Source: a virus. From it: a stretch of DNA of 64,000 nt. The notes under the pieces are model-generated. The model was not told the DNA's origin. It worked only from the letters and a program-made list of their open reading frames with translations, and ran no database searches. The stretch covers positions 1 through 64,000 of IMG/VR virus record IMGVR_UViG_3300008448_000023. One strand, given 5' to 3'. Every line of letters begins with the position of its first letter. Positions within the stretch are counted from its first letter, which is position 1. Both the position numbers and the translations under genes were made by a program. Below are positions 46,795 to 62,816 of this stretch, in pieces.

Positions 46795-47117
46795 TGACCC
46801 CAGATGAATTCTTTGGTGTATTAGAAAGTATGCCACAACCTCAGTCTGTATTTTATAGACTGTATTATGAAGGTGAACGCCCACTATTCTACAGCATGGA
46901 AGACTTGCCCGGTACATACATTGAAGTTACCCCTGAACAGTATGCTAGGAGCCAAATGAAAGTGCGTATTCGCAACGGAAGGATAATTCCTATCACTTGG
47001 CAAACGGCACAAAAACTCGCACCCAGCAACGCAGGCACACTGTGCCATTTGCAAGATGTTGCTATTGTTGTAAAAGAAAACGGAACCTATTGGAGCAAAC
47101 GGACTTATGAAAGTTGA
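46791..47117 (+). CDS. Unassigned small protein, 108 residues
   Basis: The start is taken at ATG 46791 (ATGATG, overlapping the previous stop), with AAGG 8-9 bases upstream; GTG at 46782 is an alternative. Sequence: VFYRLYYEGERPLFYSMEDL, then EQYARSQMKVRIRNGRIIPI and a C-terminal LCHLQDVAIVVKENGTYWSK. This beta-rich small protein recurs in T4-like phage genomes as a hypothetical. The gene sits between sugar-transferase-like genes, and its end overlaps the next start by 11 bases. Confidence 0.6.
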   Translation: MMTPDEFFGVLESMPQPQSVFYRLYYEGERPLFYSMEDLPGTYIEVTPEQYARSQMKVRIRNGRIIPITWQTAQKLAPSNAGTLCHLQDVAIVVKENGTYWSKRTYES

Positions 47118-48027
47118 TATCGCAGATTTAGACTGCATTTACTTAACCTATGACGAACCACAAAAAGAAGAGTTTTGGATCAAAATTCGCAACATGGTGC
47201 CTTGGGCAAAACGGGTGGATGGCGTTAAGGGCAGCGATGCTGCTCACAAAGCGGCGGCGCAGGCCAGTGACAGTGATAGATTCATTCTCATTGATGGCGA
47301 CAATCTCCCCAACCCGTCGTTTTTTAATCAGACGCTTGTTCTTCCTAATGAAGAATACAAGAACGCTGTGTTCCGGTGGCGGGCACGTAATCACATTAAC
47401 GGTTTGATGTACGGCAACGGAGGCCTAAGTTCATGGACAAAGGAGTTTGTGATGAACATGCAAACTCATGAAGCCACAGACGGACGAGATGAAACTCAGG
47501 TAGAGTTTTGTTTTGATCCCTTGTATTGGCCCATGCATGATTGTTATTCAACAACTTACCCCAACGGTGATGATTTCCATGCGTGGCGTGCAGGATTTCG
47601 AGAAGGCGTTAAGATGTGCCTGCAACGCGGTCGCAAACCCACGGTAGAAGAATTTAAAAATCAAGTGCTACGAAACTTAGACAATCTCACAATCTGGCAC
47701 AACGTGGGCACAGATGTAGAATATGGCGAGTGGGCCATCGCTGGCGCACGTCAAGGCACCTATATGACCATGCTTACTAATTGGGATCATACCTTGGTGC
47801 AAAGTTTTGATGCCTTGGCCGAACTATGGCTCACAGTGAAAGATGGCCAACCAAGATTGCTCAGTAATCGGTTGGCCGAGGACTTGCACACACAATTGGA
47901 TCTGCCAATGGCCATCCTAGAATGTGAACAAAGCGCATTTTTTAAACATCACTATCGTTTGAACTGGCACAATCAAGGTGTTATGGTTCGAGAAATTGAC
48001 GTTATTCGCAAGATAGAAGGTTGGTAA
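47107..48027 (+). CDS. Glycosyltransferase-like protein (third, DGD motif)
   Basis: A 306-residue protein. LDCIYLTYDEPQKEEFWIKI and PWAKRVDGVKGSDAAHKAA form the nucleotide-binding half, followed by DRFILIDGDNLPNPSFF with DGD at 63-65, the metal site of GT-A transferases. Further on are TVEEFKNQVLRNLDNLTIWH and GARQGTYMTML. I recall the same family from marine phage genomes without an assigned reaction. The stop (TAATG) overlaps the following radical SAM gene. Confidence 0.6.
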   Translation: MKVDIADLDCIYLTYDEPQKEEFWIKIRNMVPWAKRVDGVKGSDAAHKAAAQASDSDRFILIDGDNLPNPSFFNQTLVLPNEEYKNAVFRWRARNHINGLMYGNGGLSSWTKEFVMNMQTHEATDGRDETQVEFCFDPLYWPMHDCYSTTYPNGDDFHAWRAGFREGVKMCLQRGRKPTVEEFKNQVLRNLDNLTIWHNVGTDVEYGEWAIAGARQGTYMTMLTNWDHTLVQSFDALAELWLTVKDGQPRLLSNRLAEDLHTQLDLPMAILECEQSAFFKHHYRLNWHNQGVMVREIDVIRKIEGW

Positions 48028-49412
48028 TGAGCAAAGGCGACCAAAGCCGATTCATGAGCAGTGCGGAACAAATGTCGCAGGACCTAGGTCCTGCGCTGTG
48101 TTTGGCTAAATGGAAGCAGGTCAGCTTTCACTTGCCCACAGGTCTAAACAACTCATGTTACCATCCGCCCCTGCACCAAATTACCGCAGACGATTTGACA
48201 CGCCCTGGTGGCCTGCACAATACAGCACACAAGAAATCTCAACGAGTAATGATGATACAAGGCGAAAAGCCTGGTGAGTGTCAGTATTGCTGGAACATGG
48301 AGAATCTAGGCAAACTCAGTGACAGACATTATCGTTCAGGAGAGCCGTGGGCCGCTGTGGATTTTGAACGCATTCGTAATTCAACAGGAACTGAAGATGA
48401 TGTCATTCCAAGCTACGTGGAAGTCAATTTTAATAATGCTTGCAATCTTCGTTGTAGTTATTGCAGCCCTCAGTTTAGCAGCAGTTGGATGGACGAAACT
48501 ACTAGACACGGAGCATACCCAACTAGTAAACCTCATAATGATCCTGCACACTTTGTGGGTTCGCGACGCCCCATACCGGCTAGGGAAGCTAATCCCTACG
48601 TTGATGCGTTTTGGGCGTGGTGGCCCACTCTCTATCCCAAACTAGAACACTTTCGCATGACCGGCGGCGAGCCGCTGATGGACAAAAATACCTATCGAGT
48701 GTTTGACTATGTGTTGGAGCATGACAATCCCAAACTGCATTTGAATGTAACTTCAAACTTTTCAGTAGAGGATGCGCTGTTTGAAAAATACATGGACTAT
48801 GCCAAGAGATTATGTACACCACGGATTGAACATTTCATGCAGTATGTTAGCCTAGACTCGGGCATTGCTACGCAAGCAGAATACCTGCGTCACGGCCTAG
48901 ACTATGCTCGCATGAGTCGCAATGTTGAACGATTCTTACAGGAAATACCAAGTCGCAACAGCCTGACGTTTATTATTACAATGAACAATCTCAGTGTCAC
49001 AGGACTGCGGCCCATGCTGGAATGGATACTGAATCTACGCCGGACACACAGTTCAACCTATCAACGTGTATGGTTTGATACACCTGTGCTGCGCGAACCT
49101 GCTTGGCAAAGTCTACAAATACTGCCAGAAAGTTATGTACGTCAACTAGAACAGGCTAGAGATTACATGCTGGCCAACTTGACCACAGAAGCCAATCCCC
49201 TACACGGATTCAAAGACTACGAAGTGCAACGCCTGGAGCGTGACATTGCCTGGATGCGTGAAGGACAGTTACAGTACAATAGTATAGCCAAAGCAGACTT
49301 CTATCGTTTCTTTGCAGAACACGATCGTCGAAGGGGCACAGACTTTTTGAAGTCTTTTCCTGAGATGCGAGCCTGGTGGGCAGAATGTGAGTATCATGCT
49401 AGGAATACATAA
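48027..49412 (+). CDS. Radical SAM protein with N-terminal twitch-like cysteine module (1)
   Basis: The start is ATG 48027, with AGAAGG 6 bases before it; 461 residues. The cluster motif CNLRCSYC has Cys139, Cys143 and Cys146 (CxxxCxxC), binding the 4Fe-4S that splits SAM to the 5'-deoxyadenosyl radical; FRMTGGEPLMDK follows, the GGE motif that binds SAM. Before the core is a second cysteine group: CLAKW (near 26), SCYHPP (near 46) and CQYCW (about 85-89). The N-terminal position of this auxiliary module matches the N-twitch radical SAM group. The reaction is unknown. It overlaps the sugar-transferase-like genes on both sides. Confidence 0.8.
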   Translation: MSKGDQSRFMSSAEQMSQDLGPALCLAKWKQVSFHLPTGLNNSCYHPPLHQITADDLTRPGGLHNTAHKKSQRVMMIQGEKPGECQYCWNMENLGKLSDRHYRSGEPWAAVDFERIRNSTGTEDDVIPSYVEVNFNNACNLRCSYCSPQFSSSWMDETTRHGAYPTSKPHNDPAHFVGSRRPIPAREANPYVDAFWAWWPTLYPKLEHFRMTGGEPLMDKNTYRVFDYVLEHDNPKLHLNVTSNFSVEDALFEKYMDYAKRLCTPRIEHFMQYVSLDSGIATQAEYLRHGLDYARMSRNVERFLQEIPSRNSLTFIITMNNLSVTGLRPMLEWILNLRRTHSSTYQRVWFDTPVLREPAWQSLQILPESYVRQLEQARDYMLANLTTEANPLHGFKDYEVQRLERDIAWMREGQLQYNSIAKADFYRFFAEHDRRRGTDFLKSFPEMRAWWAECEYHARNT

Positions 49413-50502
49413 AATTTTTGTTGACGAATGGGCCGAAACCTGGGACTTGCTAAAGCCCTATGCTGATGAGGTGTTTTGGCAATGGCCTAAAGAATTGGAT
49501 CCTTCTAGTGTGTACATTGTAGGTCGTGTGCTGCTGAAGCAACACTGGACAGAAATCACAGAATGGGCTACTCAGCATCCCGGACGCATTGTGTTTTCAA
49601 ATCCTGCTGAAGGATCTGAAACTATACTACTGCAACTCCGACGACTGCGTATTACAGAGCATGTGCGTGACGGACGTATTGGCCTACTAACCTCCGGTGA
49701 CATGGAACCCGGCTGGCGTTATTGCAAAACAGATTGCTACTTCTCTAACATAGTAGAGTTCACAGAAAATCGAGCAGCACAGATTGAAGCTGCACTGGAC
49801 CACAAAGTTCAGCGCCCTTATGAATTTTTGTTCTTAAATGGTAGACTGAGACCGCATCGCAAGTACCTAATAGACCATCTAAGAGCTCAAGAGTTATTGT
49901 CAAATGCACTGTGGACCAATCTTGGTAGTCAAGTTGAAATGGCTTTTACGTCTGCGTTGGACACAGGCAAAACAGAACCCATTAGATTGTTGCCCCCAGA
50001 ATACGAGATCCCACGTGCTGTGTCGCAGTTGAATACAGTACCTGAGTCGGGGTTTGTCAAACACGAGTTGTTCAACAACACCTGGGGTGATGCCATAGTC
50101 AATCATCGGTGCTACACAGACGCCTGGTTCAGTTTGGTAACAGAAACAATATTTGATTATCCGCACACGTTTCGCACAGAAAAGATCTACAAGCCTATTC
50201 TAATGGCACATCCATTTGTGGTTGCAGCCAATCCAGGCTATTTGCGAGATTTAAGAAACGCTGGATTCAAAACATTCGACACCTTGATAGATGAATCGTA
50301 TGATCAAATCAATACCCCAACTGCACGAATAGAGCGTATAATAGATACAGTGCGTGACATAAGTTTGAATGGTGCTGCTAATTTCTGGGAAGCCAGTCGT
50401 GATATCTGTAAATACAATCAGCAACATCTTGTGGAATACAATCGTCAGCAACGTGCTGAGTTGCCCACACTACTAGAACAATACCTCAATGAACGATCTT
50501 GA
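49396..50502 (+). CDS. Glycosyltransferase-like protein (fourth)
   Basis: Taken from ATG 49396 (368 residues); GTG 49387 is possible. The N-terminal half has IFVDEWAETWDLLKPYADEV and HPGRIVFSNPAEGSE, and the centre has RPYEFLFLNGRLRPHRKYLI. The C-terminal half has EKIYKPILMAHPFVVAANPG and YLRDLRNAGFKTFD. That last pattern (T-E-K-xxKPI-xxxHPF, then LRxxGFxTF) is found in exostosin/fucosyltransferase-like sugar transferases, where the K/R and E contact the donor nucleotide. It lies between two radical SAM genes and overlaps both. Confidence 0.6.
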   Translation: MLGIHKIFVDEWAETWDLLKPYADEVFWQWPKELDPSSVYIVGRVLLKQHWTEITEWATQHPGRIVFSNPAEGSETILLQLRRLRITEHVRDGRIGLLTSGDMEPGWRYCKTDCYFSNIVEFTENRAAQIEAALDHKVQRPYEFLFLNGRLRPHRKYLIDHLRAQELLSNALWTNLGSQVEMAFTSALDTGKTEPIRLLPPEYEIPRAVSQLNTVPESGFVKHELFNNTWGDAIVNHRCYTDAWFSLVTETIFDYPHTFRTEKIYKPILMAHPFVVAANPGYLRDLRNAGFKTFDTLIDESYDQINTPTARIERIIDTVRDISLNGAANFWEASRDICKYNQQHLVEYNRQQRAELPTLLEQYLNERS

Positions 50503-51817
50503 TTTTCGCCAGCAAGTACTGGATACCTTGAGTCCTAGCTTTTGTGGGGCAAAGTGGTTTAATGCTACCATTTGGCTTGGTAGCGGCATGAGCACCAGCT
50601 GCCATCACCCGCCAGCTCATTTGGTGGACATTGATAAAGTCACTACCAACCCTAAGCTGCTGCACAATACACCCGAAAAGAAAGACGACCGTGCAAAAAT
50701 GCAGGCAGGCGAACGTCCCAGTGGTTGCGAATACTGCTGGAAGATTGAAGACATGGGTCGCAATGCTGTTTCAGACCGTGTGTACAAATCAAAAATTTAC
50801 CCTATAGCTGCATTAAAGGAAGCACATGAAACTCCGCCTGATCAAGACGTGGATTTGCGAACTCTTGAAATTTCTTTTGATCGGACCTGCCAGTTTGCTT
50901 GTTCTTATTGTAATCCTGCATTCAGTAGCACATGGGTTAAAGACATTAGGAATAACGGACCCTATATGGGCCTTGTGTCTGACGGTCGTAATCACTTTAC
51001 ACATGAGCATTCAAGTGCTCAATTGTATCGCTTCGGGGAGACCAATCCGTATGTTGAAGCTTTTTTTGCGTGGTGGGAATCAGATCTACATCACACATTA
51101 CAAGAATTAAGAATCACCGGCGGTGAGCCACTAATGAGCGGCCACACCTGGAAACTGATTGACTGGTTCCGTAACAATCCAGGACGCAGTCGCACACGCC
51201 TGGCCATCAACTCAAACCTGGGTGCAGATGTAGATGTGGATCGACTGCTGGATTCCATACAGGGGCTGGATGTGGACGTCTATACCAGCCAGGAAGCTGT
51301 GGGCGTTCAAGCCGAATACATACGTGATGGCCTGGACTATGTTGCCTGGAAGGCAAATGTAGAAAAGATCTTGGCCAGTGGCCGTGTGCGTACCTTGCAC
51401 TTTATGGGCACTATTAACGCACTGTGCCTGCCCAGCTTGCCCGACCATTTGCGTTATCTACTGGAACTAAAACAACGCTACGGGCGTGACGCAGTAAGTT
51501 ACACACTGAACATTTTGAGATTCCCCAGCTTTCAAAGTGCGCTGGTAATGCCACATGAACTACGTGCTAGATTTTCTGTAGAACTAAAAGAATTGCACTA
51601 CCGCAATCAACACAATCCGCTGTTTCATGAGCATGAATTGGATCACTTGCAACGGCTGATTGATTACTTGGATGTAGTCGAAACTCCGCATTCAGAAGCA
51701 TTTGACCTCCCTAAACTACTGAACGATTTTGTTGAATTTTATCGACAGTACGATATTCGCAGAGCAAAGAACTTTGCACTGACGTTCCCTAAATTAAAGA
51801 AACTCATAAACAAATGA
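50489..51817 (+). CDS. Radical SAM protein with N-terminal twitch-like cysteine module (2)
   Basis: A 442-residue paralogue of the 48027 protein. Core motif CQFACSYC has Cys134, Cys138 and Cys141; LRITGGEPLMSG is the SAM-binding GGE motif. The N-terminal module has SFCGAKWF, TSCHHPPAH and CEYCWKIEDMG, in the same order and spacing as in the first protein. The C-terminal end KKLINK is short, with no further cysteine module, so any second cluster must use the N-terminal cysteines. It overlaps the preceding gene by 14 bases and the next by ATGA. Confidence 0.8.
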   Translation: MNDLDFRQQVLDTLSPSFCGAKWFNATIWLGSGMSTSCHHPPAHLVDIDKVTTNPKLLHNTPEKKDDRAKMQAGERPSGCEYCWKIEDMGRNAVSDRVYKSKIYPIAALKEAHETPPDQDVDLRTLEISFDRTCQFACSYCNPAFSSTWVKDIRNNGPYMGLVSDGRNHFTHEHSSAQLYRFGETNPYVEAFFAWWESDLHHTLQELRITGGEPLMSGHTWKLIDWFRNNPGRSRTRLAINSNLGADVDVDRLLDSIQGLDVDVYTSQEAVGVQAEYIRDGLDYVAWKANVEKILASGRVRTLHFMGTINALCLPSLPDHLRYLLELKQRYGRDAVSYTLNILRFPSFQSALVMPHELRARFSVELKELHYRNQHNPLFHEHELDHLQRLIDYLDVVETPHSEAFDLPKLLNDFVEFYRQYDIRRAKNFALTFPKLKKLINK

Positions 51818-53502
51818 CCCTAGAAGAATTACAAACACAATACAACGTAGTTGGCATAATTGATTTGTCTGCATGGACTAACAACTACGAAACCAGCACA
51901 CAGTGGCTACGCAGTCAATGCCAAGCTGTGTACCAACCAGCCTACGCAGAAAATCAACGCATTGTGTTTGTACATTCACATGATTACTATGTTAAGAATG
52001 CAGACTCTGCGGGTATCATTTTAAAGAACATACAAGTAGCACTGAATGAAACTGATATTAGCAATTATTTTGCGCTAGTACTCAGTACCAATCCCAATAT
52101 TGAACAAGAAATGGCTTATATCAATTCGCAGAGTTCTGACCCAGTGCCTGTGAAATTTGAACGCTGTGTTGGCGAGTTTGTTACAAAAGAATTGACCCAG
52201 CATCCTTACAGTCGTAAAGAGCAGTATCAGTACGGATCGGCTAACCCTATAAAAATCAGCCTAAATGAAGTCAGCGAGCAAGATAAATTTTTACTCAGTG
52301 AAAGCAAGAACTTCTGCATTTACCCTTGGATTCACCTGCACGCTTGGCCCACGGGCGAAGCATATCCTTGCTGTCATGCCACACAGCATCCTGTGTATGG
52401 TAACACACGTAAAGAAACCTTGTCTGATGTATGGAATGGCACACGCATGCGACAACTAAGACAAGACATGCTGAGTGATACACCAAATGAAACCTGCCGT
52501 AAATGTCACGAACAAGAAGATTCTGGATTCTTTAGTGGCAGACAAAGTGCAAACAAACATCACGGACACCATATTGATCGTGTGCATAGAACAGGACCTG
52601 ATGGCACATTCAATGAGTTTGAAATGACTTATTGGGATATTCGTTTTAGTAATCTTTGCAATTTAAAATGTCGTAGCTGTGGACATATCTTTAGCTCACA
52701 GTGGTATCAAGATCAAGCCAAGTTAGCTGGAGGTACCTGGAAACAATCTAATCCTGTGCTTAACTATGCAGGACGTACAGAAACAGACATGTGGGAACAA
52801 TTGATTCCACATCTGGACTATGTGGAACAGATTTATTTTGCCGGTGGCGAACCCTTGCTGATGGAAGAACACTATCATATTCTCGACGAGTTAGTAAAAA
52901 GAAAAAGATTTGATGTAAGATTGATTTACAACACCAATTTTACACACACTGACTTGAAAGGTAATTCGGTATTTGACTACTGGAAACAATTTGATTCGGT
53001 GGCTGTAGGCGCCAGCTTAGATGCTTCAGGAGCACGTGGAGAATACATACGCAAAGGCACAGACTGGGCACAAGTAGAACAAAATCGCAGAGACATGTTG
53101 GCAATTTGTCCTGGCGTGGATTTTTATATTTCGCCCACACTCAGTATCATGAATGCGCTACACCTGCCAGATTTTCATCGTGACTGGGTAGAAAAAGGCC
53201 TGCTAAAACCGCAAGATCTAAATGTGAATATTCTTCAGGACCCCTACGAATACAGACTGGACATTGCTACTCCTGAATACAAACAACAAATACAACAGCG
53301 ATTTCTTGAACACATTGAATGGTTGCGACCACAAGACCCCTTGCATAGAGCCACAGTGGGTTTTGAATCGGCAATCAACTACATGATGAGCACAGACAAC
53401 ACCGCACTGATACCTAAATTTTGGGACAAGACTCAACAGCTGGATAAAATCAGAAAAGAAAACATCTTGGACATTATTCCTGAATTAGCTGCATTAAAAT
53501 GA
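51814..53502 (+). CDS. Radical SAM protein with N-terminal extension and SPASM-like module (3)
   Basis: The largest member, 562 residues. Residues 1-150 form an extra domain without a recognised family (DLSAWTNNYETSTQWLRSQC). Then comes an SPASM-like module ahead of the core: CIYPWIHLHAWPTGEAYPCC, a downstream VWNGTRMRQLRQDMLS, and CRKCHEQEDSG. The core has CNLKCRSC with Cys282, Cys286 and Cys289, and IYFAGGEPLLMEE. In standard SPASM enzymes this module is C-terminal; here the order is reversed. The stop overlaps the SGNH-like gene start (ATGA). Confidence 0.8.
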   Translation: MTLEELQTQYNVVGIIDLSAWTNNYETSTQWLRSQCQAVYQPAYAENQRIVFVHSHDYYVKNADSAGIILKNIQVALNETDISNYFALVLSTNPNIEQEMAYINSQSSDPVPVKFERCVGEFVTKELTQHPYSRKEQYQYGSANPIKISLNEVSEQDKFLLSESKNFCIYPWIHLHAWPTGEAYPCCHATQHPVYGNTRKETLSDVWNGTRMRQLRQDMLSDTPNETCRKCHEQEDSGFFSGRQSANKHHGHHIDRVHRTGPDGTFNEFEMTYWDIRFSNLCNLKCRSCGHIFSSQWYQDQAKLAGGTWKQSNPVLNYAGRTETDMWEQLIPHLDYVEQIYFAGGEPLLMEEHYHILDELVKRKRFDVRLIYNTNFTHTDLKGNSVFDYWKQFDSVAVGASLDASGARGEYIRKGTDWAQVEQNRRDMLAICPGVDFYISPTLSIMNALHLPDFHRDWVEKGLLKPQDLNVNILQDPYEYRLDIATPEYKQQIQQRFLEHIEWLRPQDPLHRATVGFESAINYMMSTDNTALIPKFWDKTQQLDKIRKENILDIIPELAALK

Positions 53503-54137
53503 GTTTGAATTTTGATAGTTTTTTTGGCGCACCTACTTCCTATGTGCCGGGACCGTATTTTTTAGCAGCAGGTTGCAGTCATACTTCAGCGGTGGGGGTA
53601 GATGCTGATCAATGCTGGGCAGGCCAACTGGCTCAACGCACTCGAATCAAGACTTGTAATCTAGCCGAAGCCGGGGGCAATGCCTGGATTGCCAGTATGC
53701 GTATAGCACAGTGGATTCTGGTCACCGGTCGTCCAGAGTTTGTTGTGGTACAATGGCCTCACCCCATACGCACAGTGATATGGAAAAACGGACAAGGTAA
53801 TTCTGTTAACGTACACGACACTGAAGATCATTTATTTCACACCCGCTTGCGCTACGGTGACTCCAATTACTGGGCTGAGTGGATGCAGGCAATAATTACT
53901 ACAAATGCCATTTGCGTCGCAGCCAAAATCCCCATTATAAATTGGAGTCTTGACAACGTTGATCCGCACTATCTTGCACTGTTAAAGGCCAATGGCATTG
54001 TTGTGCATGATCAAACAGATCAACCACGCTGGGAAAGAGACCGGTCGGGCTCAGATCAACGACATGCCGGGCCCTTGTCACATGCGCAATGGGCACAACA
54101 ATTACAGGAAATGTTAAATGCAATTACCACACGATAA
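53499..54137 (+). CDS. SGNH/GDSL-hydrolase-like protein (first)
   Basis: A 212-residue protein. YFLAAGCSHTSAVGVDAD has the form of SGNH block I (GDSxTxG, here GCSHTxxxG with Ser kept), AEAGGNAWIASMRIAQWIL holds a GGN as in block II/III, and near the end RHAGPLSHAQWAQQL has the D/HxxxH end pattern (block V). SGNH enzymes are esterases or acyl-transferases of sugars and lipids. No signal peptide. The gene lies inside the radical SAM run and overlaps both neighbours. Confidence 0.5.
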   Translation: MSLNFDSFFGAPTSYVPGPYFLAAGCSHTSAVGVDADQCWAGQLAQRTRIKTCNLAEAGGNAWIASMRIAQWILVTGRPEFVVVQWPHPIRTVIWKNGQGNSVNVHDTEDHLFHTRLRYGDSNYWAEWMQAIITTNAICVAAKIPIINWSLDNVDPHYLALLKANGIVVHDQTDQPRWERDRSGSDQRHAGPLSHAQWAQQLQEMLNAITTR

Positions 54138-55356
54138 ATTCTGCGTATTACCTTGGATCAGTTTGGAGGCCAGCCCTATAGGTACAGTACGTCCTTGTTG
54201 CCTAGCCGACGACGAAATTGTAGACAACGCTGGCAACAAATTTGAATTAAGTACAGCAAATTTTGGAGACATTCAAAATTCCAATCACATGCGCGATCTT
54301 CGCCAGGAGTTCTTGGATGGAAAAAAACCTCAAACCTGCCGTAAGTGCTGGAACGAAGAACGTGCAGGACGCACATCAAAACGTATGCACACCCTGGACA
54401 GACTCAAACATGTGGTCACAGATACAGAGTGGACCGCAGATGCTAAACCTTTGATGTTCCTGGATCTCAAGCTGGGCAACATCTGCAACTTGAAATGCCG
54501 TATATGCGGTTCATGGTCTAGCAGTCAATTTGCCGCAGAAGAAATCCAATGGACTGCCTCGCATGAACGCAAGCAAACCTATGCATATCAAATGTTGCGA
54601 GCTGGTGCATGGCCACAGGAAAATCAACAATTCTGGAATCAAATTGATAGCTGCCTGACAGATATTCGTTATATTGAATTCACAGGTGGTGAGCCATTTA
54701 TGATTAAAGAACACTTTGCTATGTTACAAGGCATTGTGGATCGTGGTATTGCACATCAGGTAGAAATACATTACAACACCAACGGAACCATTTTTCCCGA
54801 AGAAGCTGTTGAAATCTGGCGCCATTTCAAAACTGTAGAAGTAGCGTTCAGCATCGACGACATGGGTCCTCGTTTTGAATATCAGCGCACCAATGCCAAG
54901 TGGGTAGAAGTAGAAGAAAATATAGCACGTTTCTTTGAATTGAAAAACACGTTGCCTGGGTTGAAATTACAGGTCTGCTGCACAGTCAATGTATTCAACG
55001 TCATGTATTTGCATCAAACGTCAGACTGGATTGTACAGCAAGGATTTGACTTTGTGTATTGGAATATGATGCATGATGCTTGGTATTTTTCTATAGCCAC
55101 ACTGCCCAAAGAAGCCAAAGAAAAAATTGATCAGCATTTTGCACGGCATGTTACACAGCCCAGCTGTCAAGCTGAATTTATTCGCATAATTGATTTTATG
55201 AATCGTGGTGCTGATTCCGACGGTGATATGTTGCGTATGAAAATACGTGACTTAGATCGTAAACGCGGACAGAATCTTGCAGACTTTGCACCCGAATTTG
55301 CAGCCATGATCAACTACAATTACAATGACACAGACCCCAACGCTCCCAAAGCCTGA
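54118..55356 (+). CDS. Radical SAM protein with N-terminal SPASM-like module (4)
   Basis: A 412-residue protein. The N-terminal module is close to the SPASM pattern: FCVLPWISLEASPIGTVRPC with a second Cys after it, then MRDLRQEFLDGKKPQTCRKC and WNEERAG. The core has CNLKCRIC with Cys123, Cys127 and Cys130, followed by YIEFTGGEPFMIKEHFAML. Near the middle, AFSIDDMGPRFEYQRTNAKW is the usual radical SAM strand-6 region. The AGGA ribosome binding site lies before ATG 54118. It overlaps the previous gene by 20 bases. Confidence 0.8.
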   Translation: MQLPHDKFCVLPWISLEASPIGTVRPCCLADDEIVDNAGNKFELSTANFGDIQNSNHMRDLRQEFLDGKKPQTCRKCWNEERAGRTSKRMHTLDRLKHVVTDTEWTADAKPLMFLDLKLGNICNLKCRICGSWSSSQFAAEEIQWTASHERKQTYAYQMLRAGAWPQENQQFWNQIDSCLTDIRYIEFTGGEPFMIKEHFAMLQGIVDRGIAHQVEIHYNTNGTIFPEEAVEIWRHFKTVEVAFSIDDMGPRFEYQRTNAKWVEVEENIARFFELKNTLPGLKLQVCCTVNVFNVMYLHQTSDWIVQQGFDFVYWNMMHDAWYFSIATLPKEAKEKIDQHFARHVTQPSCQAEFIRIIDFMNRGADSDGDMLRMKIRDLDRKRGQNLADFAPEFAAMINYNYNDTDPNAPKA

Positions 55357-56641
55357 CACCTTGTGCATGGCACCTTGGACGCACACATATCTAAGCCCGC
55401 AAACCGAGCGTAGAATGTGCTGTGCGTCGAGAGAACCTGCACAGAACTTTGCGCAATACATAGACACAGCCGCAGGCACTGGGCGCTATATTCCTGTCAC
55501 ACTAGAACAGCACTGGAACAGTGATCACATGAAGTCAGTTCGTCGCAGAATGATGGCAGGGGAAACCTTGCCTGAGTGTGAAGTATGCAATGACCGACTG
55601 CTTAATACCAGCGTTTACCGCACTTACTTTGATCATTTGTTTGGGCACAAACTAGAGGAAATATATGCAAGTACCGATGCTTCAGGGCACACAAGCATGG
55701 CTCCTGTTTCGTGGGATTACCGCTTTAGTAACCTTTGCAACTTCAAATGCAGAACCTGCGGAGATATGCTTTCGTCAGCATGGGAGACCGAAGAAAAGAC
55801 TCAAAACATGGTTGACTGGCATAATCCAAAAAATAATTGGATGCAACCTAATTATCGTCAACAGATCACTGAGTTTCAGGATAGTCAGGTTGAGGCCGAA
55901 TTTGCTGCCGCCGTTGAGCGACATGATGTTGAAGAGATCTACTGGGTAGGTGGCGAACCCTTGATGTATGAACAACACTGGCGTTACATGCAACGCATTG
56001 TTGAACTAGGAGATGGACCCAGATTATATGCACGATACAACACTAACCTTAGCCGAATTCATTATCGGGGGCGTGACCTTTATAGTGATATCCTGGATCA
56101 TATACGAGATTGGCAAATTTGCGCGAGCATTGACGGCACTGGAGCAATCGGTGAATACATTAGAACAGGTCTTGACTACGCAACGTTCTGCAGAAACTTC
56201 GAAGCAGGACTGCAACACCAGCGAAACCGACGACAGATGAGACTGGACTTTACATTGACGTTGCCGGGCATGTTTGAAGTTGATGCAATGCAGCAATTGG
56301 CCTCCAGCTATGACGTAGAATTGTTGGTCAAAGTGATATTCAGTTTTACTCCAGATATTATTATGAGTCCTTTGGCATTGCCACGACATCTGTTGGATGT
56401 CTGGGTAGATGAACTAGTGCCCAATTGTACCTCCGGTGCCATGCGCGATGTACTGCTACAGTTAAAGAACCGTCCCACATTTGAACAACAATGGCCTGAA
56501 GAATATCGTGCAGGTCTTGCTCGAGGCAAGGCTCGTGTGTTAAAATTAGAAAGCATAAGAACACAGTCGGTAACAATGACTGACATTCTGGGCACACGTC
56601 CAGAAATACTAAAATGGTGGAACGAAATTGGAATCAATTGA
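55325..56641 (+). CDS. Radical SAM protein with N-terminal SPASM-like module (5)
   Basis: A 438-residue protein starting in the previous gene (32-base overlap); the ATG at 55366 would remove conserved TLCMAPW context and is less likely. N-terminal module: LCMAPWTHTYLSPQTERRMC plus a second Cys, then MKSVRRRMMAGETLPECEVC. The core has CNFKCRTC with Cys138, Cys142 and Cys145, and IYWVGGEPLMYEQHW for the GGE motif. CASIDGTGAIGEYIRTGLDY is the strand that carries the substrate-near DxS-type residues in this family. It overlaps the next gene by 14 bases. Confidence 0.8.
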   Translation: MTQTPTLPKPDTLCMAPWTHTYLSPQTERRMCCASREPAQNFAQYIDTAAGTGRYIPVTLEQHWNSDHMKSVRRRMMAGETLPECEVCNDRLLNTSVYRTYFDHLFGHKLEEIYASTDASGHTSMAPVSWDYRFSNLCNFKCRTCGDMLSSAWETEEKTQNMVDWHNPKNNWMQPNYRQQITEFQDSQVEAEFAAAVERHDVEEIYWVGGEPLMYEQHWRYMQRIVELGDGPRLYARYNTNLSRIHYRGRDLYSDILDHIRDWQICASIDGTGAIGEYIRTGLDYATFCRNFEAGLQHQRNRRQMRLDFTLTLPGMFEVDAMQQLASSYDVELLVKVIFSFTPDIIMSPLALPRHLLDVWVDELVPNCTSGAMRDVLLQLKNRPTFEQQWPEEYRAGLARGKARVLKLESIRTQSVTMTDILGTRPEILKWWNEIGIN

Positions 56642-57662
56642 AATAGATCTCCGTGGCAACAGCGGAGACTGTCTAACTGTTTATATCAATGTGCACGACA
56701 ACAGTTTGAGTCGTAAATGGTTGGCCGCGCTCAATGATATTATTCGTAATCAACTGCATCTAGAAAAGAACTATTGTTGGATGGGCTGGACTGAGCATGA
56801 TCGCAACTTAGAATATCTTTGTACACAAGTCAATCGCAGTATTCATGCAATCAACAGCAGCAATTTAGATTATCGTATACAAGACTTTTTTAGTCCTGCC
56901 AATGTAATACAAAAAAATCTTGATGTCAATCATGACAAAATGAATCATCTGCATCGTTATTTCGAAGACCTGCAAGGAACTTCGGGTGCAATGAGCAGGT
57001 ACTACACAGCCGCAGACGATCACACACGTTGGCACATACGCCAATTAAATTTATTGTGTCATGAAATAGAAAGTCTTGTGCTGAGCATGCGCAAAGATGT
57101 GCAAGCACCTGAATGGAAGCGTCCCAGCCAGTTGATGTGCTGGCTCAATGCCCCACGTTTTGTGCTAGAACAAGAAGATTATGAGTTGTTTGGTGTTGAC
57201 ACCATTAACCGTAGTCTTGGTGGTGTGTATGTGGGCGTGAACAAAGCAGTAGGCAAGCACCATTGGGAAGTGTTCAACGACGAAGGCCGCGACAGTCGCA
57301 TCGGCGAACTTGTTACGTCCTCACTAAAAGCACAGACTGAAGCCGCAGGAGATTTTGATATTGAGTGGGCACGTGACCCTGGCGCTTACCATTGGCAAAA
57401 GACCAAATTGGCTGAATTCCGTGAATGGCTTATCGCGAACGGATTTGATCCTGACGACAAAGCCCTCACTATCGGCCATCCCAAGGTTGCTCAAGTTGAT
57501 TTGCAGCGCTCATTCGGCACAACAGACTACACAGAGATATGGGCACAGCTAGCCCAACATCTGGATGTGTATAAAATACGCACCAGTTCAGCAGAAGCTA
57601 CATATAACTATAACTGGAGCGATGCAGACTATGCAGAGCAACAAATAAAGGAACTTAAATGA
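56628..57662 (+). CDS. Unrecognised 344-residue protein, second-last before the 33-codon gene
   Basis: The start is TTG 56628, with GGTGG 8 bases before; there is no ATG until residue 53. It has LTVYINVHDNSLSRKWLAAL and LHLEKNYCWMGWTEHDRNLE in the first 70 residues, HRYFEDLQGT then ADDHTRWHIRQLNLLCHEIE in the middle, and GGVYVGVNKAVGKHHWEVFN. It is soluble, rich in His, Trp and acidic residues, and contains few cysteines. I recall similar phage proteins next to the small DPFIYK protein and radical SAM genes, without a function. It overlaps the preceding radical SAM gene and the following peptide gene. Confidence 0.6.
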   Translation: MESIEIDLRGNSGDCLTVYINVHDNSLSRKWLAALNDIIRNQLHLEKNYCWMGWTEHDRNLEYLCTQVNRSIHAINSSNLDYRIQDFFSPANVIQKNLDVNHDKMNHLHRYFEDLQGTSGAMSRYYTAADDHTRWHIRQLNLLCHEIESLVLSMRKDVQAPEWKRPSQLMCWLNAPRFVLEQEDYELFGVDTINRSLGGVYVGVNKAVGKHHWEVFNDEGRDSRIGELVTSSLKAQTEAAGDFDIEWARDPGAYHWQKTKLAEFREWLIANGFDPDDKALTIGHPKVAQVDLQRSFGTTDYTEIWAQLAQHLDVYKIRTSSAEATYNYNWSDADYAEQQIKELK

Positions 57663-57760
57663 ACTGGATTAAAAGCATCTGGAATCGAATTACCTTGGAA
57701 ATTCGCTATCGTAAAAAGCTAAAAGAACTACGCAAGCGCGATCCATTTATCTACAAATGA
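57659..57760 (+). CDS. 33-residue basic peptide ending DPFIYK
   Basis: Too short for usual gene callers. ATG 57659 overlaps the previous stop (ATGA) and its stop overlaps the next start (ATG 57757), so it is held in the operon with no intergenic space. The peptide is amphipathic: WIKSIWNRITLEIRYRKKLK, then ELRKRDPFIYK at the end. It carries 13 Lys or Arg residues, no Cys, and 2 Trp and 2 Tyr. Such strict packing between two genes in a set of radical SAM, carbamoyl and amidino enzymes makes a substrate peptide or a small assembly factor plausible. I recall similar DPFIYK-ended peptides in marine phage genomes, but no function. Confidence 0.65.
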   Translation: MNWIKSIWNRITLEIRYRKKLKELRKRDPFIYK

Positions 57761-58401
57761 AAAAGCAGTTGTTAACAGTAGGGGATAGTTTTACCTATGG
57801 TGATGAACTTGACGATATCTATCAGGCTTGGCCTTATCAGTTGGCAGATCTACTAGATTACGAAGTGCATAACATGGGCCTAAGCGGTGCCAGCAATGCT
57901 AGTATATTGCGTAGATCACTAGAAGAACTAGTAACCAACGAGTACGATCTAGTAATCATTGGATGGACTAACCCGGGACGTATCGAGTGGAAAGACGACA
58001 CTGGTATTCCCTATAACATGTGGCCAGGACATGCAGGGTCGTCGGCGTTCTTTGTTGAACAACCATGGCGGTTGGATCTGCTGAGCTACATTAGTCAACA
58101 TCATAATTCATCATACCTGTATCAGCGATATCTAATTCAAGTTCTTTCTTTACAATCTTATTTTGAAGCACATAACATTGAGTATAGAATGATAGATACT
58201 GTACGCAACAACTACTATCGAAAAGTTGGCGCCGAAGAACATGATAAATTAGAAGCAAAAATAAACACTAAAAAGTTTGTAGGCTGGAACAGTTTTGGAA
58301 TGTCTGAGCTAACTATGGATTGTCCACGCGGTGTAGGTAGTCACCCACTGGAAAAAGGCCATAAAAAAATAGCCAATGAAATATATCAAGGATTAAAATG
58401 A
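57757..58401 (+). CDS. SGNH/GDSL-hydrolase-like protein (second)
   Basis: A 214-residue protein with the full SGNH set: LTVGDSFTYGDEL (block I, with catalytic Ser), NMGLSGASNASILRRSLEEL (block II Gly and block III-like Asn), DLVIIGWTNPGR, and SHPLEKGHKKIANEI near the end (SxxxxxGH, block V). Members deacylate or transacylate sugars, lipids and peptidoglycan. No signal peptide is seen, so it should act in the cytoplasm. The start overlaps the 33-codon gene and the stop overlaps the carbamoyltransferase start (ATGA). Confidence 0.7.
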   Translation: MKKQLLTVGDSFTYGDELDDIYQAWPYQLADLLDYEVHNMGLSGASNASILRRSLEELVTNEYDLVIIGWTNPGRIEWKDDTGIPYNMWPGHAGSSAFFVEQPWRLDLLSYISQHHNSSYLYQRYLIQVLSLQSYFEAHNIEYRMIDTVRNNYYRKVGAEEHDKLEAKINTKKFVGWNSFGMSELTMDCPRGVGSHPLEKGHKKIANEIYQGLK

Positions 58402-59879
58402 ATATTCTAGGGATATCCGGCGGCTTTCACGATGCTGCTGCCACAGTAATTGATAGTTCAGGCAACATCTTGTTTGCTGGCCATGCAGAACGCTATAGTA
58501 AATGCAAGAGCGATGCTGACATTGGCTCTGCACTGTTAGACGAACTAGAGCAATACAATCCCATTGGTACTGTAGCATACTATGAACGACCGCTAGTAAA
58601 GCAACTGCGTCAATGGTACGCAGGACAGGGCATAGAGTGGGATAAACTAACTGCTCGACAAGCTGTGAACAAACAAACACAAGGGAGGTACGATCATGTG
58701 CCCATACAGTCTTTCAATCATCATCTTAGCCATGCTGCTGCGGGGTTTCAAACGAGCACGTTCCAAAGAGCCACAGTTGTGGTAATAGATGCTGTGGGTG
58801 AATTTGAAACAATCACAATATGGGGAGCACAATATGATCGAAGTGGTGTGGCAAAGTATAAAAGACTTTGGAGCCAGCGTTATCCACATTCAATTGGACT
58901 GTTCTACAGCGCAGCTACTGGCAGCGTTGGCCTACGCCCACTAGATGAAGAATACATCTTGATGGGCATGGCTGCTTACGGCAGCTCAGAACATAATCTA
59001 ACACTGCAAAAAAAGCTAGTCAGTGATACTGTGAATATTAAATTCCGTGAAAATCTACACACAGGCATAGACAGTAAACACCTAGCTGACATGACAGACT
59101 ATGACATTGCTGCCAGCGCACAGGCCATTGCAGAAAATTTGATCAACAATGTCATGAGCAGAGCACGTGATTTTAAGTGGTCTGACAATCTGGTATACAT
59201 GGGTGGCGTTGCTCTCAATTGTTCAGCCAACAGGCATATAGGACGGTATTTTGATAACATATGGATTATGCCTTGCCCTGGCGATGCTGGCAGTAGCCTG
59301 GGTGCTGCTGCCCTGGCTTGGGGTAAAAGAGTTAAATGGACTGATGCTTATCTCGGACACAATATCGCTGGTGACTATCCTGTTAATGATATTCTCAATC
59401 ATCTGGCATCTGATCTCATTGTTGGTGTTGCTAGCGGCCGTGCTGAGTTTGGTCCTCGTGCACTAGGAAATCGTAGCTTGCTGGCCGATCCACGAGGCGA
59501 GCGTATCAAGGACCAAGTAAATGCAATCAAACGTAGACAAAAATTTAGACCTTTTGCCCCTGTTATTTTGGAGGAACATGTTGATATGTACTTTGATATG
59601 CCTAGGGGTTTCCCTGACAGTAGGTATATGCAAGTCATCGCTCGTTGCCGGCATCCTCACATATTTCCTGCTATCATTCATCATGACCACACTAGTCGTG
59701 TACAAACTGTGCCGCGAGATGGAAGCGGAATTAGACAACTACTCGAAAAGTGGTACACAATGACTGGGTGTCCCATGTTGCTGAACACATCGTTGAACAT
59801 TCGCGGCGAACCCATGGTCAACGATCGCAAGGACGCAGACAGATTTGAAACATTGTATGGCGTCAAAGTATGCAGTTGA
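58398..59879 (+). CDS. NodU/TobZ-type carbamoyltransferase
   Basis: A 493-residue protein (family usually 550-600). It has the typical N-terminal NILGISGGFHDAAATVID, the metal/His motif NHHLSHAAAGF (107-117), VVVIDAVGE, SIGLFYSAATG and DEEYILMGMAAYG. The second half has GGVALNCSANRHIG, MPCPGDAGSSLGAAALAWG, then the C-terminal domain GRAEFGPRALGNRSLLADPR and MLLNTSLNIRGEP. Such enzymes transfer the carbamoyl group of carbamoyl phosphate, through carbamoyl-adenylate, to hydroxyl groups of sugars or antibiotics. All major motifs are present. It is the most firmly assigned catalytic gene of the block. Confidence 0.92.
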   Translation: MNILGISGGFHDAAATVIDSSGNILFAGHAERYSKCKSDADIGSALLDELEQYNPIGTVAYYERPLVKQLRQWYAGQGIEWDKLTARQAVNKQTQGRYDHVPIQSFNHHLSHAAAGFQTSTFQRATVVVIDAVGEFETITIWGAQYDRSGVAKYKRLWSQRYPHSIGLFYSAATGSVGLRPLDEEYILMGMAAYGSSEHNLTLQKKLVSDTVNIKFRENLHTGIDSKHLADMTDYDIAASAQAIAENLINNVMSRARDFKWSDNLVYMGGVALNCSANRHIGRYFDNIWIMPCPGDAGSSLGAAALAWGKRVKWTDAYLGHNIAGDYPVNDILNHLASDLIVGVASGRAEFGPRALGNRSLLADPRGERIKDQVNAIKRRQKFRPFAPVILEEHVDMYFDMPRGFPDSRYMQVIARCRHPHIFPAIIHHDHTSRVQTVPRDGSGIRQLLEKWYTMTGCPMLLNTSLNIRGEPMVNDRKDADRFETLYGVKVCS

Positions 59880-60562
59880 GCGGAAATTTGTTGATACTGG
59901 GAGATAGCTTTTGTCAACATCCTGAATACTGGCCTGAGTATTTTGCTGGTCATATACTGGGACCAACCAGTCAACATCGTTGCCTAGGGTACGGCGGCGC
60001 CAGCTGGTGGTTTTTGCGCGACAAATTATTGCAGTTCATATCTTGTGAATCAAAGTTTTGGAACAACACAGAGCTGCTGGTTATGATACATCCTCCGCGA
60101 TCACGAATTCATACTACATTAGACGAAGTTAGATTTAAAACTTTTGATCCTCCTTTGCCACGTGTTTTCAACAATGTTGATTTTGAAGAGTTAGACATAG
60201 CAGTCAAGCTTTATTACAAGTATTTTCATTCAGAAGAATATTGCCGTTGGGCAGAAACTCAATGGTTCAAAGAATTATCCACACTGTGCAAAAATAAACA
60301 AGTTATCAATCTGTTTGTAGACATAGATGTGCCTAGATCATCTGACCACTTGCCAGGAATAACAATAGATCAGTCATTGATTGGAATTCAATTCAATCAA
60401 TACATGCGTACACAAGATATTGAACCATTTGATGGTATCATTGGATTTCAAAATCATTTCACGGCAAACAACAACAAAATCTTTGCCAAACAACTATATG
60501 AAATTGCTCAAGGTACAACCAAAAAATTTAACCCAACAGAATTTGAAAAGTATGAGCAATAG
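59870..60562 (+). CDS. SGNH-like protein (third, divergent)
   Basis: A 230-residue protein that starts LLILGDSFCQHPEYWPEYFA, that is, block I GDSF of SGNH hydrolases, with CLGYGGASWWFLRDKLLQF for block II. IIGFQNHFTANNNKIFAKQL near the end gives the final HxxxxN(K) pattern instead of a clear DxxH. Catalysis is uncertain. It overlaps the carbamoyltransferase by 10 bases and the next radical SAM gene by 11. Confidence 0.55.
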   Translation: MQLSGNLLILGDSFCQHPEYWPEYFAGHILGPTSQHRCLGYGGASWWFLRDKLLQFISCESKFWNNTELLVMIHPPRSRIHTTLDEVRFKTFDPPLPRVFNNVDFEELDIAVKLYYKYFHSEEYCRWAETQWFKELSTLCKNKQVINLFVDIDVPRSSDHLPGITIDQSLIGIQFNQYMRTQDIEPFDGIIGFQNHFTANNNKIFAKQLYEIAQGTTKKFNPTEFEKYEQ

Positions 60563-61817
60563 AGTATTCCCGATTAAAAGCGACACGGCCTGTTTGTTGA
60601 AGTGGGCCTGGTCAACAGTATATCTAGGTCAGGGCACAAGCTCAAGTTGTCACCGCACAGATCAGGCACTTATTCCCCCAGACAACTTTGCAAGCTTTCA
60701 CAACTTGCCCAACAAAGTGGCAGCACGAAAGCAAATGCAGGAAGGCACTTGGCCACAAGGCGGATGTCAGTACTGTGAAAAGATTGAGCAAGCAGGCGGC
60801 ATGAGCGATCGACAATACCAACTCAAGGCTGGTCACGAAGCTGATCGCACTCCTGAAGAGTTGTTGACAGACCCCACTGCCACAGAAGTTGTGCCCACTA
60901 TCTTGGAAGTCTACTTCAACAACACCTGCAACATGGCCTGCTTGTATTGCGGTAGTCACTTCAGTACCAAATGGGAAGAAGAAAACAAGAGATTTGGCGT
61001 ATTTGAACAAGGGCGTGTACGGTTTGGATACAATCAACCCTCCAATCCCAACTATGACAAAATGTTGGCAGACTTCTGGCAGTATCTCAGAGACAAAGAT
61101 CGCTACAAGCACATACGCTACTATCAGATCCTAGGCGGAGAACCATTCTTTCAGCCAGAGTTTGACACCAGCTTAGACTTCTGGGAAAGTCATCCCAACC
61201 CGGAACTCACATTCAACATCATTACCAACTTGAAAGTGCCCACAAAGAAGTTCAAAGCATACATAGATCGCTTTGGGGCAATGGTTGAGTCTGGTGCATT
61301 AAAACGTCTACAAATAACTGGCAGCTTGGATGCCTGGGGTCCACAAGAAGAATATGTGCGCTGGGGACTTGACCTTGAGGAGTGGCAAGAGAACTGGGAA
61401 TACTTGCTGGACAAAGACTGGGTTGTGATGTGCATGAACACAGCTATCAGTGCGCTGACAATTAAAACACTGCCTGACTTAGTGGAACGTATCAATGGTT
61501 GGAATGCTCGCCGCAATCCCTGGAATCCCATCAGCTTCAGCTTTATGTCAGTAATGACACCGCCTGAAATGGTTCCGGATATCTTTGGTGCTGGAGTGTT
61601 TGATGCAGACTTTGAACGTGTGTTGGCAGCCATGCCTACAGACAAACCTGGATCCCAAGAAGCACGAGAACACATGACTGGCATTATGCGACAGATACAA
61701 GCAGGCCCCAGAGATCAAAGCCGCATTGATGATCTCAAAGTTTATCTAACTGAGATTGATCGCCGCCGCGGAACCAATTGGAAACAGTTATTTCCGTGGC
61801 TTGCAGAGCTCAACTAA
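60552..61817 (+). CDS. Radical SAM protein with N-terminal twitch-like cysteine module (6)
   Basis: The start is ATG 60552 (421 residues), because conservation begins there (CLLKWAWSTVYLGQGTSSSC); an upstream ATG at 60381 would re-use the previous gene. N-terminal module: CLLKW, SSCHRTDQ and CQYCEKIEQAG, as in proteins 1 and 2. The core has CNMACLYC with Cys126, Cys130 and Cys133, and YYQILGGEPFFQPEFD. It is convergent with the next minus-strand gene; the coding ends overlap by 30 bases (61788-61817), with no terminator between them. Confidence 0.8.
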   Translation: MSNRVFPIKSDTACLLKWAWSTVYLGQGTSSSCHRTDQALIPPDNFASFHNLPNKVAARKQMQEGTWPQGGCQYCEKIEQAGGMSDRQYQLKAGHEADRTPEELLTDPTATEVVPTILEVYFNNTCNMACLYCGSHFSTKWEEENKRFGVFEQGRVRFGYNQPSNPNYDKMLADFWQYLRDKDRYKHIRYYQILGGEPFFQPEFDTSLDFWESHPNPELTFNIITNLKVPTKKFKAYIDRFGAMVESGALKRLQITGSLDAWGPQEEYVRWGLDLEEWQENWEYLLDKDWVVMCMNTAISALTIKTLPDLVERINGWNARRNPWNPISFSFMSVMTPPEMVPDIFGAGVFDADFERVLAAMPTDKPGSQEAREHMTGIMRQIQAGPRDQSRIDDLKVYLTEIDRRRGTNWKQLFPWLAELN

Positions 61818-62816
61818 ACTGGCGTTAAACTGAATTTGATCTGCGTAGGTATCATGTGCCGTACGCAGATTTTCTATTGCAGCCAGGTGTTCAGAGTGTG
61901 CAGGATTGACAACATCTTGGACAGCAAAGTCAGCCCATGTGCCCCAATCTTCGAGTCTGTTGACTACCCCGTCAAACCCAAAGTTAACACATAGCTCGCA
62001 GAAGTTTTGCACGTCATGATGGTTGGCTTGTTGAAACACGAACTTCAACAGCACTTCCGACTTGGTACGTTGTTGTACCAGCTTCAGCCACTCTAAGTTG
62101 CGCATTAGTACATCCCAGCGTCCGGGTCTGCGTACATTGTGATACACTTCTGCAGAACCTGCGTCCATACTGATAAAGTATTGCGTAATGTTGTCTAGTA
62201 TAGGTGAGTCGCTTAATTGCTTTTCCATCAGCAAACCATTGGTAAACAATCGTATAGTTTGTTGTGGAGTCGGCTGGAACTCACGGATCAGCGGACGCAT
62301 GATAGAACTTGCTAGTGGATCGCCATTGCCCGACATAACAATATGACAAGGTTCTTCAAATTGTTCTAACAGTCTTCGTGTGTGTTCTACTTGTGCTAGC
62401 TTGCGCTCATAGTCTGCGCCTTGTGAAACCATGATAGCATCACTGCGGCAACTAGGGCAAGCTAGATTGCAACTTTCGTCTATGTTGATGCTGACAACAT
62501 AGCCAGTATCAAATAAGTCTCGGTTTCTAACACCGCAACGGTCTACGGCACAGTGCGTGAACTTGCCATCTACAATGTCTTGTTGTAAGGCTTGTGCTGT
62601 GGGATGTGCCCATACATCCGCTAGGCGATCAAAGTCAGTGATCCGGCCAGGACTAACAGGCAACCATGCTTCGCAGCCGCATACAAAACAATCTCCTTTC
62701 CAATCTACTACCAATTGACGACTAGGTGCATTGCAGCGGTAGTCTATGGTGTAGCCTAGTTGCGCATTGCGCGGGATTGAGTTATATGCATGCTGGTTAG
62801 CAATCGGGATGATCAT
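61788..62816 (-). CDS. Radical SAM protein with N-terminal SPASM-like module (7)
   Basis: A 342-residue protein on the opposite strand. N-terminal cysteines: YRCNAPSRQLVVDWKGDCFV (with CGC following), a VWAHPTAQALQQDIVDGKFT segment, and CAVDRCG. The core has CNLACPSC with Cys116, Cys120 and Cys123; IVMSGNGDPLASS stands in the place of the GGE motif (GNGD, a known variation). FISMDAGSAEVYHNVRRPG follows. The closer match to SPASM-type partners suggests peptide or sugar chemistry. The start overlaps the amidinotransferase stop (ATGA), so these two are coupled. Confidence 0.75.
   Translation of the reverse strand: MIIPIANQHAYNSIPRNAQLGYTIDYRCNAPSRQLVVDWKGDCFVCGCEAWLPVSPGRITDFDRLADVWAHPTAQALQQDIVDGKFTHCAVDRCGVRNRDLFDTGYVVSINIDESCNLACPSCRSDAIMVSQGADYERKLAQVEHTRRLLEQFEEPCHIVMSGNGDPLASSIMRPLIREFQPTPQQTIRLFTNGLLMEKQLSDSPILDNITQYFISMDAGSAEVYHNVRRPGRWDVLMRNLEWLKLVQQRTKSEVLLKFVFQQANHHDVQNFCELCVNFGFDGVVNRLEDWGTWADFAVQDVVNPAHSEHLAAIENLRTAHDTYADQIQFNASLVELCKPRK

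Follow-up and report, generated by a model that had tools for sequence, protein, structure and literature searches.

A conserved, ordered cassette of N_Twi radical SAM genes in T4-like phages and its possible role in host surface-glycan remodelling

Positions 1 to 64,000 of the 94,412-base viral record IMGVR_UViG_3300008448_000023, the whole stretch analysed here and termed the window, carry an array of radical S-adenosylmethionine (rSAM) genes. The phage is a T4-like myovirus, the baseplate wedge protein of which is nearest to those of the jumbo phages Phosso, Atu_ph07 and PBECO4 (about 35% identity). Five of the rSAM genes, r1 to r5, belong to an ordered cassette of five N_Twi_rSAM groups that occupies a constant slot, bears a characteristic promoter/terminator signature and is subject to allele exchange, a combination apparently undescribed in the open-access literature. 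We put the probability that this cassette remodels envelope glycans of the host at roughly 45%.

The initial annotation had reported seven CxxxCxxC proteins at 48.0-62.8 kb, each with an auxiliary cysteine set preceding the core. Seven open frames do lie there, and alignment confirmed the placement of the auxiliary set in all of them. The comparison with N-twitch families suggested in that annotation was carried out with the NCBIfam model NF033640 (N_Twi_rSAM), the cut-off of which is 170 bits over the whole protein. Proteins r1 to r6 scored 230-406 bits (Table 1), and an eighth rSAM, r8, located beyond the window at 89703-90821 of the contig, is likewise an N_Twi protein (204.7 bits). With 32.1 bits against the same model, r7 is not a member and is, judged by its domains, a different SPASM-type enzyme resembling general SPASM rSAMs. 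The Pfam SPASM domain (PF13186) is located N-terminal to the core in r3, r4, r5 and r7; its cut-off is passed by r3, r4 and r7, while r5 falls slightly below (19.6 versus 21.5). The radical SAM domain PF04055 was found in r1 to r6 at E values of 6e-9 to 0.008, several of them under Pfam's own cut-off.

In the aligned rSAMs (alignment A1) the CxxxCxxC and the GGEP-type SAM motif are both present, and three N-terminal plus three core cysteines are invariant across all eight rSAMs of the contig. Among relatives, four auxiliary and three core cysteines are 100% conserved in the 84-136 distinct sequences available for each of r1 to r5, and the N-terminal set occurs in 604 of 627 rSAM open reading frames from related contigs. 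Chance or mis-annotated cysteine motifs are ruled out by the NF033640 scores, the N-terminal set in relatives and this conservation. Four groups feature an additional, nearly invariant cysteine (C265 in r1, C313 in r2, C287 in r4 and C266 in r5) in non-equivalent alignment columns; it is a matter of speculation whether these residues serve different active-site roles. The N-terminal extension of r3 (about 160 residues, window 51814-52302, plus strand) is common to some relatives only and gave 27 BLAST matches.

Phylogenetic analysis of 184 sequences, by a quick method and with long branches that make deep placements unsure, recovered a single branch for each of r1, r2 and r4. On this tree, 5 changes account for the five labels r1 to r5, as compared with a mean of 71.8 after shuffling, and r1 to r5 are thus supported as separate orthologous groups, i.e., as non-redundant paralogues. 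Ratios of non-synonymous to synonymous substitutions (dN/dS) of 0.04-0.14 for r1 to r6, where dS is unsaturated, point to purifying selection. A recent tandem duplication in this phage is ruled out because the split of the paralogues predates that of the phages in the tree, and redundant or decaying copies are ruled out by the dN/dS values together with zero lost cysteines. Of the sub-groups proposed earlier, {r1, r2, r6} was recovered as one branch with full support and r7 stood apart as an outlier, whereas r3, r4 and r5 fell into three separate neighbouring branches with bacterial sequences in between. The 'SCHxP' motif assigned to the first sub-group proved to be loose (SCYHPP in r1, SCHHPP in r2, SCHRTD in r6).

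At least 570 relatives came out of each of two profile scans run on viral contigs. The gene order seen in relatives is tail43-tail439-w44935-gtA-gtB-(w46782)-gtC-r1-(exo)-r2-r3-r4-r5-w56628-(SGNH)-(carbamoyltransferase), while r6, r7, the amidinotransferase and extra sugar-type genes come and go. The order of r1 to r5 was kept in all loci possessing at least three of them (194/194); as similarity to the cassette itself was the criterion by which these loci were retrieved, and some of them are overlapping pieces of one contig, they speak for conservation rather than frequency, and the number of independent phages behind them is below 194. Adjacent genes of the core usually share a few bases (median gaps -22 to +3), and in 214 of 224 loci an rSAM gene follows gtC at a distance of no more than 4 kb. 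A more distant set retains gtC with other N_Twi rSAMs behind it, which indicates that the slot is constant and that the enzymes vary with distance. Between 5 and 21 N_Twi matches per record (E <= 0.001, part of them below the cut-off) were present in 23 large contigs of 138-364 kb. According to our reading of the IMG sample numbers, the contigs are mainly of freshwater origin. Two contigs of metagenome-assembled genomes labelled Rickettsiales and Pelagibacter (L186 and L187) contain the genes of the tail side together with all five rSAMs of the cassette; they are probably wrongly binned phage contigs, were left out of bacterial counts, and suggest that the cassette occurs in the sea too. Isolate collections yielded only distant rSAM relatives, nearly all from Vibrio phages, and no relatives of gtC.

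With regard to expression, the cassette is set off from the tail genes. The motif TATAAATA, known from late promoters of T4-like phages, precedes tail43 in 39 of 124 distinct relatives (0.0037 expected per stretch). Among relatives it stands upstream of w44935 in 2 of 127 and of carbT in 1 of 81 cases, but not upstream of a single gene from gtA through w56628. A hairpin followed by a T tract lies at the tail439/w44935 site in 59 of 130 relatives, compared with 0-1 at other gene starts. The sigma-70 type promoter at this site scored at least 9/12 in 76% of the 130 relatives (15% in shuffles) and at least 10/12 in 49% (2.6% in shuffles), and distant relatives exhibit perfect or near-perfect TTGACA/TATAAT boxes. 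Terminator and promoter in the relatives together suggest that the cassette is probably a transcription unit of its own, read by host RNA polymerase. In many loci the -10 box is only about 6-7 bases upstream of the start codon, implying that the message is leaderless or that translation starts further downstream.

Comparison with the close contig 3300034283_002112 revealed about 95% identity through the end of gtC, but 63-85% for r1, exo, r2 and r3, 96% for the SGNH gene, 73-79% for most of r4 and about 90% thereafter; two SGNH genes are absent from that contig. In parallel, dS rises from 0.12-0.24 (gtA to gtC) to 0.86-1.82 (r1 to r4). In this one pair of contigs allele exchange, as read from the divergence profile, is centred on the rSAM genes, and the drop in identity over r1-r3 and r4 is as expected of a swapped trait such as surface chemistry. 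These data bear on the earlier proposal of a serial or combinatorial pathway. The non-redundancy of r1 to r5, apparent from orthologous groups, fixed order, overlaps, cysteine conservation and dN/dS, agrees with a process made up of several distinct steps, to which the rSAMs likely contribute five that are non-redundant. The term 'combinatorial' receives indirect support only, from allele exchange and the accessory members (r6, r7, the SGNH, carbamoyl- and amidinotransferase genes).

The mechanism that we infer starts with transcription from the sigma-70 promoter by host RNA polymerase, probably early in infection. The products would comprise the putative sugar transferases gtA, gtB, gtC and exo, the rSAMs r1 to r5 and the partner w56628, supplemented by exchangeable decorating enzymes (O-carbamoyltransferase, SGNH proteins and r6, with r7 and the amidinotransferase on the opposite strand). 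Together, they would build or rework an envelope glycan of the host, most likely sugars of the lipopolysaccharide (LPS) or O-antigen. Each rSAM is predicted to bind the SAM-coordinating [4Fe-4S] cluster and an N-terminal auxiliary cluster, and would carry out a different C-H abstraction, on a sugar or an intermediate linked to one, with oxidation, epimerisation, deoxygenation or C-C bond formation as the outcome. Adsorption of competing phages to the changed surface would be blocked, or the receptor concealed from the progeny. A bolder version, in which r1 to r5 form a fixed five-step radical assembly line, each enzyme catalysing a different C-H reaction on one shared sugar or lipid-linked glycan, generating surface sugars impossible for the host and changing the product through traded alleles, appears doubtful to us.

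We favour glycan remodelling because the identifiable neighbours point to sugar chemistry: the carbamoyltransferase is nearest to NovN/TobZ and the amidinotransferase to AGAT/StrB, a DegT aminotransferase and an NAD-epimerase are also encoded nearby, and a GDSL-like protein is present. Further arguments are the fixed order of r1 to r5 as orthologous groups directly behind gtC, and the separation of the cassette from the tail genes by terminator and sigma-70 promoter, with the late motif restricted to the upstream side of the tail genes. Related arrangements argue in the same direction, namely N_Twi rSAMs of Vibrio phage K566 among GT8 and GT4-like genes beside PagP and LpxC, the pairing of five rSAMs with an amidinotransferase and sugar transferases in Campylobacter phage CP220, and a carbamoyltransferase or ABC-2 exporter in some bacterial N_Twi loci. 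Of about 78 such bacterial loci, five have a carbamoyltransferase close by and three an ABC-2 permease; others have neither, and a Pfam tally of bacterial neighbourhoods was mixed and not decisive. In bacterial contigs, mostly from Bdellovibrionota (L236, L207, L230, L229 and others), N_Twi rSAM genes occur in arrays with as many as nine members, and one Oligoflexia contig (L235) encodes close relatives of r1, r2 and r3.

Several points weigh against remodelling of host glycans. The proteins gtA, gtB, gtC and exo lack a significant database match, their assignment relying on motifs and a weak glycogenin match: profiles of gtA, gtC, exo and w56628 found nothing in the PDB, and that of gtB only glycogenin (E 0.017). 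The promoter calls are sequence patterns from which the timing is deduced, the case of allele exchange is a single pair of contigs, and several bacterial arrays are situated among unrelated genes (ATP synthase, FUR). In addition, the AlphaFold2 model of r4 (predicted local distance difference test score, pLDDT, 92; predicted template modelling score 0.89) has the peptide-modifying CteB, SkfB and anSME as well as viperin among its nearest solved folds, together with BlsE and DesII, all at template modelling (TM) scores of only 0.3-0.4. As these matches range over enzymes acting on peptides, nucleotides and sugars, and as their TM scores are low, the substrate cannot be read from the fold.

Finally, the location of the cassette beside tail-fibre genes would suit modification of the virion as well. 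In this main rival explanation, the rSAMs act on the backbone or on side chains of the adjacent tail-fibre proteins and the transferases glycosylate them, thereby diversifying the adhesin. The position directly downstream of the tail-fibre genes, which is maintained in relatives, is in line with it, as are the peptide-modifying SPASM enzymes near r4 and mycobacteriophage enzymes that glycosylate virions, according to a reference quoted in PMC12619734. On the other hand, the conserved terminator and sigma-70 promoter part the cassette from the late tail operon, the rSAM/GT8 cluster of K566 lies by PagP and LpxC, and the identifiable neighbours are mostly sugar-tailoring enzymes, so that we consider virion modification unlikely.

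SPASM/twitch rSAM arrays often belong to pathways for ribosomally synthesized and post-translationally modified peptides (RiPPs). The cassette could accordingly yield a RiPP-like peptide or another small molecule released in the host, e.g., an inhibitor of competitors. The small conserved proteins w44935 and w46782, encoded upstream of the rSAMs, are possible precursors, and the Bdellovibrionota have arrays without sugar enzymes. Both small proteins nevertheless look folded, without repeats or cysteine-rich cores, neither a peptidase nor an exporter was recognised next to the array, and the overlapping core genes leave no space for a precursor peptide in between, which rules out that particular location. 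Overall, such a product is quite improbable. Phage rSAMs of the QueE type serve the synthesis of cofactors or modified nucleotides, and the rSAMs might in the same way supply the phage with a cofactor or its genome with a modified nucleotide; a ThyX gene, named by eye from its sequence, is encoded nearby (L008:10074-10766). We judge this auxiliary metabolism or DNA hypermodification very improbable, as QueE-like matches of the window rSAMs are far under the family cut-offs, the conserved core is devoid of a linked DNA-modification partner and the cassette resides in the tail/host-recognition region.

That the system, called unexplained in the initial annotation, stands without precedent is not supported, since N_Twi_rSAM is already curated and modules of rSAMs and sugar enzymes are known from T4-like phages (PMC2853527, PMC7029224). 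NF033640 covers six rSAMs of the window and the one at 90 kb over their full length, but is defined per protein, with a model name without function, and an ordered cassette of five paralogues in a phage is outside its definition. The T4-like Campylobacter phages CP220 and CPt10 (Firehammervirus) contain an exchangeable 10-kb rSAM module (PMC2853527). The CP220 module resembles the window in having five clustered rSAMs, an amidinotransferase and two nucleotide-diphospho-sugar transferases, the latter being annotated there and inferred here. Its rSAMs reach 31 bits at best versus the N_Twi cut-off of 170, and therefore constitute another subfamily and are not orthologous; moreover, the swap there replaced the whole module, whereas the window phage swaps alleles of the same genes.

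For pelagimyophages, a host-recognition cluster with glycosyltransferases and rSAM gene cassettes beside tail fibres has been described, and the authors propose O-chain modification against coinfection (PMC7029224). The layout is the same here, with gtA to gtC as inferred glycosyltransferases, but those phages infect marine SAR11, and the parts of PMC7029224 dealing with the cluster do not describe an ordered five-gene core or a promoter, nor do they assign the rSAMs to a subfamily. In Vibrio phages K566/K567, two rSAMs exceed the N_Twi cut-off and three fall short of it, and GT8 genes are interspersed among most of these rSAMs; in K566 the N_Twi rSAMs are interleaved with two GT8 genes and one GT4-like gene. 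The rSAMs of these phages are only about 23-27% identical to those of the window, fall outside the r1 to r5 groups in the tree and adjoin PagP and LpxC, while the window cassette adjoins tail fibres. K566 is an independent lineage. The enzymes anSME, CteB and SkfB share the radical SAM barrel and a cysteine-rich auxiliary domain with the window rSAMs. In these enzymes the auxiliary domain follows the core, whereas it precedes the core in the window rSAMs.

For a curated family without a named function, the cassette supplies genetic context, i.e., five orthologous groups in one order under one promoter, surrounded by sugar enzymes, in many aquatic phages. It represents a testable case for phage radical chemistry on envelope glycans, and the K566 cluster beside LPS genes is found in an isolate open to experiment.

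Table 1. Features of the rSAM cassette and its surroundings (window positions).
Feature	Position	Strand	Assignment	Evidence or remark
TATAAATA	42129..42136	+	T4-type late promoter motif	before tail-fibre genes, outside cassette
tail43	42164..43900	+	tail-fibre/virion-structural-like	PHROG matches (virion structural, tail fibre); position immediately upstream conserved in relatives
tail439	43914..44879	+	putative tail-fibre gene	no family match; named from position
terminator	44883..44902	+	intrinsic hairpin closing tail operon	between tail439 and w44935
promoter	44900..44928	+	sigma-70 type cassette promoter, TTTACT-17-TATACT	overlaps terminator tail
w44935	44935..45243	+	first cassette gene, 102 aa	conserved; no PHROG match
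gtA	45240..46043	+	putative GT-A glycosyltransferase	invariant LDADY (D97, D99); inferred, no database match
gtB	46039..46794	+	putative GT8-like glycosyltransferase	weak glycogenin match; invariant E-x-D
w46782	46782..47117	+	small conserved protein, 111 aa	
gtC	47107..48027	+	putative sugar-nucleotide transferase, cassette hallmark	invariant DGDN; function inferred
r1	48021..49412	+	N_Twi_rSAM (KW/SC type)	NF033640 303.5 bits; 7 cluster Cys 100% in 136 relatives
exo	49387..50502	+	exostosin/fucosyltransferase-like	motif resemblance only, no database match; varies between phages
r2	50489..51817	+	N_Twi_rSAM (KW/SC type)	NF033640 278.9 bits; Cys conservation
r3	51814..53502	+	N_Twi_rSAM (PW/CC type), optional N-terminal extension	NF033640 405.9 bits; Cys conservation
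SGNH	53499..54137	+	SGNH-hydrolase-like, accessory	motif by eye, no Pfam match
r4	54118..55356	+	N_Twi_rSAM (PW/CC type)	NF033640 348.3 bits; AlphaFold2 model; Cys conservation
r5	55325..56641	+	N_Twi_rSAM (PW/CC type)	NF033640 280.7 bits; Cys conservation
w56628	56628..57662	+	conserved partner	confident model, no PDB match
GDSL/SGNH	57757..58401	+	GDSL/SGNH-like, accessory	PF13472 E 8.9e-7, slightly below cut-off; PF19547 above cut-off
carbamoyltransferase	58398..59879	+	O-carbamoyltransferase (NovN/TobZ/NodU family)	PF16861, PF02543; NovN E 2e-43, TobZ
SGNH	59870..60562	+	SGNH-like, accessory	motif by eye, no Pfam match
r6	about 60543..61817	+	accessory N_Twi_rSAM (KW/SC type)	NF033640 230.1 bits; minority of relatives
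r7	61788..62816	-	rSAM with N-terminal SPASM-like domain, not N_Twi_rSAM	PF13186 23.4 bits, PF04055 34.4 bits
amidinotransferase	62813..63820	-	glycine/inosamine-phosphate (StrB) family	AGAT E 1.4e-13, StrB 1bwd E 7.7e-13

The partner w56628 belongs to a phage family with two sub-groups. Its model is confident (pLDDT 88.6) and, in a fold search, had no match in the PDB and only uncharacterised phage proteins as matches in BFVD, among them a protein of Agrobacterium phage Atu_ph07; the predicted structure is possibly a new fold.

Some further genes of the phage deserve mention. A protein of 1128 residues (L008:4055-7441, plus strand; contig 66054-69440) consists of about nine repeats of the type 'SWxPxPxxPPYIYVFGNQ...ATExKYMD' and a gtC-like C-terminal part, and is conserved close to the cassette. 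Two proteins encoded on the minus strand (L009:5663-6934 and L009:9447-10604) contain PP-loop-like SGGxDS motifs and are asparagine-synthase-like by eye, with no Pfam match; the second one adjoins a second amidinotransferase. An open frame of 4872 residues (window 26745-41363, plus strand) lies between baseplate and tail-fibre genes in the conserved tail block. The phage also encodes an AMP-binding, acyl-CoA ligase-like enzyme (window 8796-10265, minus strand, PF00501) and proteins resembling TctC/Bug-type periplasmic receptors, one in the window (10262-11206, minus strand, by eye) and one at L009:6931-7779 (minus strand; Pfam TctC E 1.2e-5, slightly below cut-off). The latter type is odd for a phage and abundant in Burkholderiales, and may hint at a host from this order.

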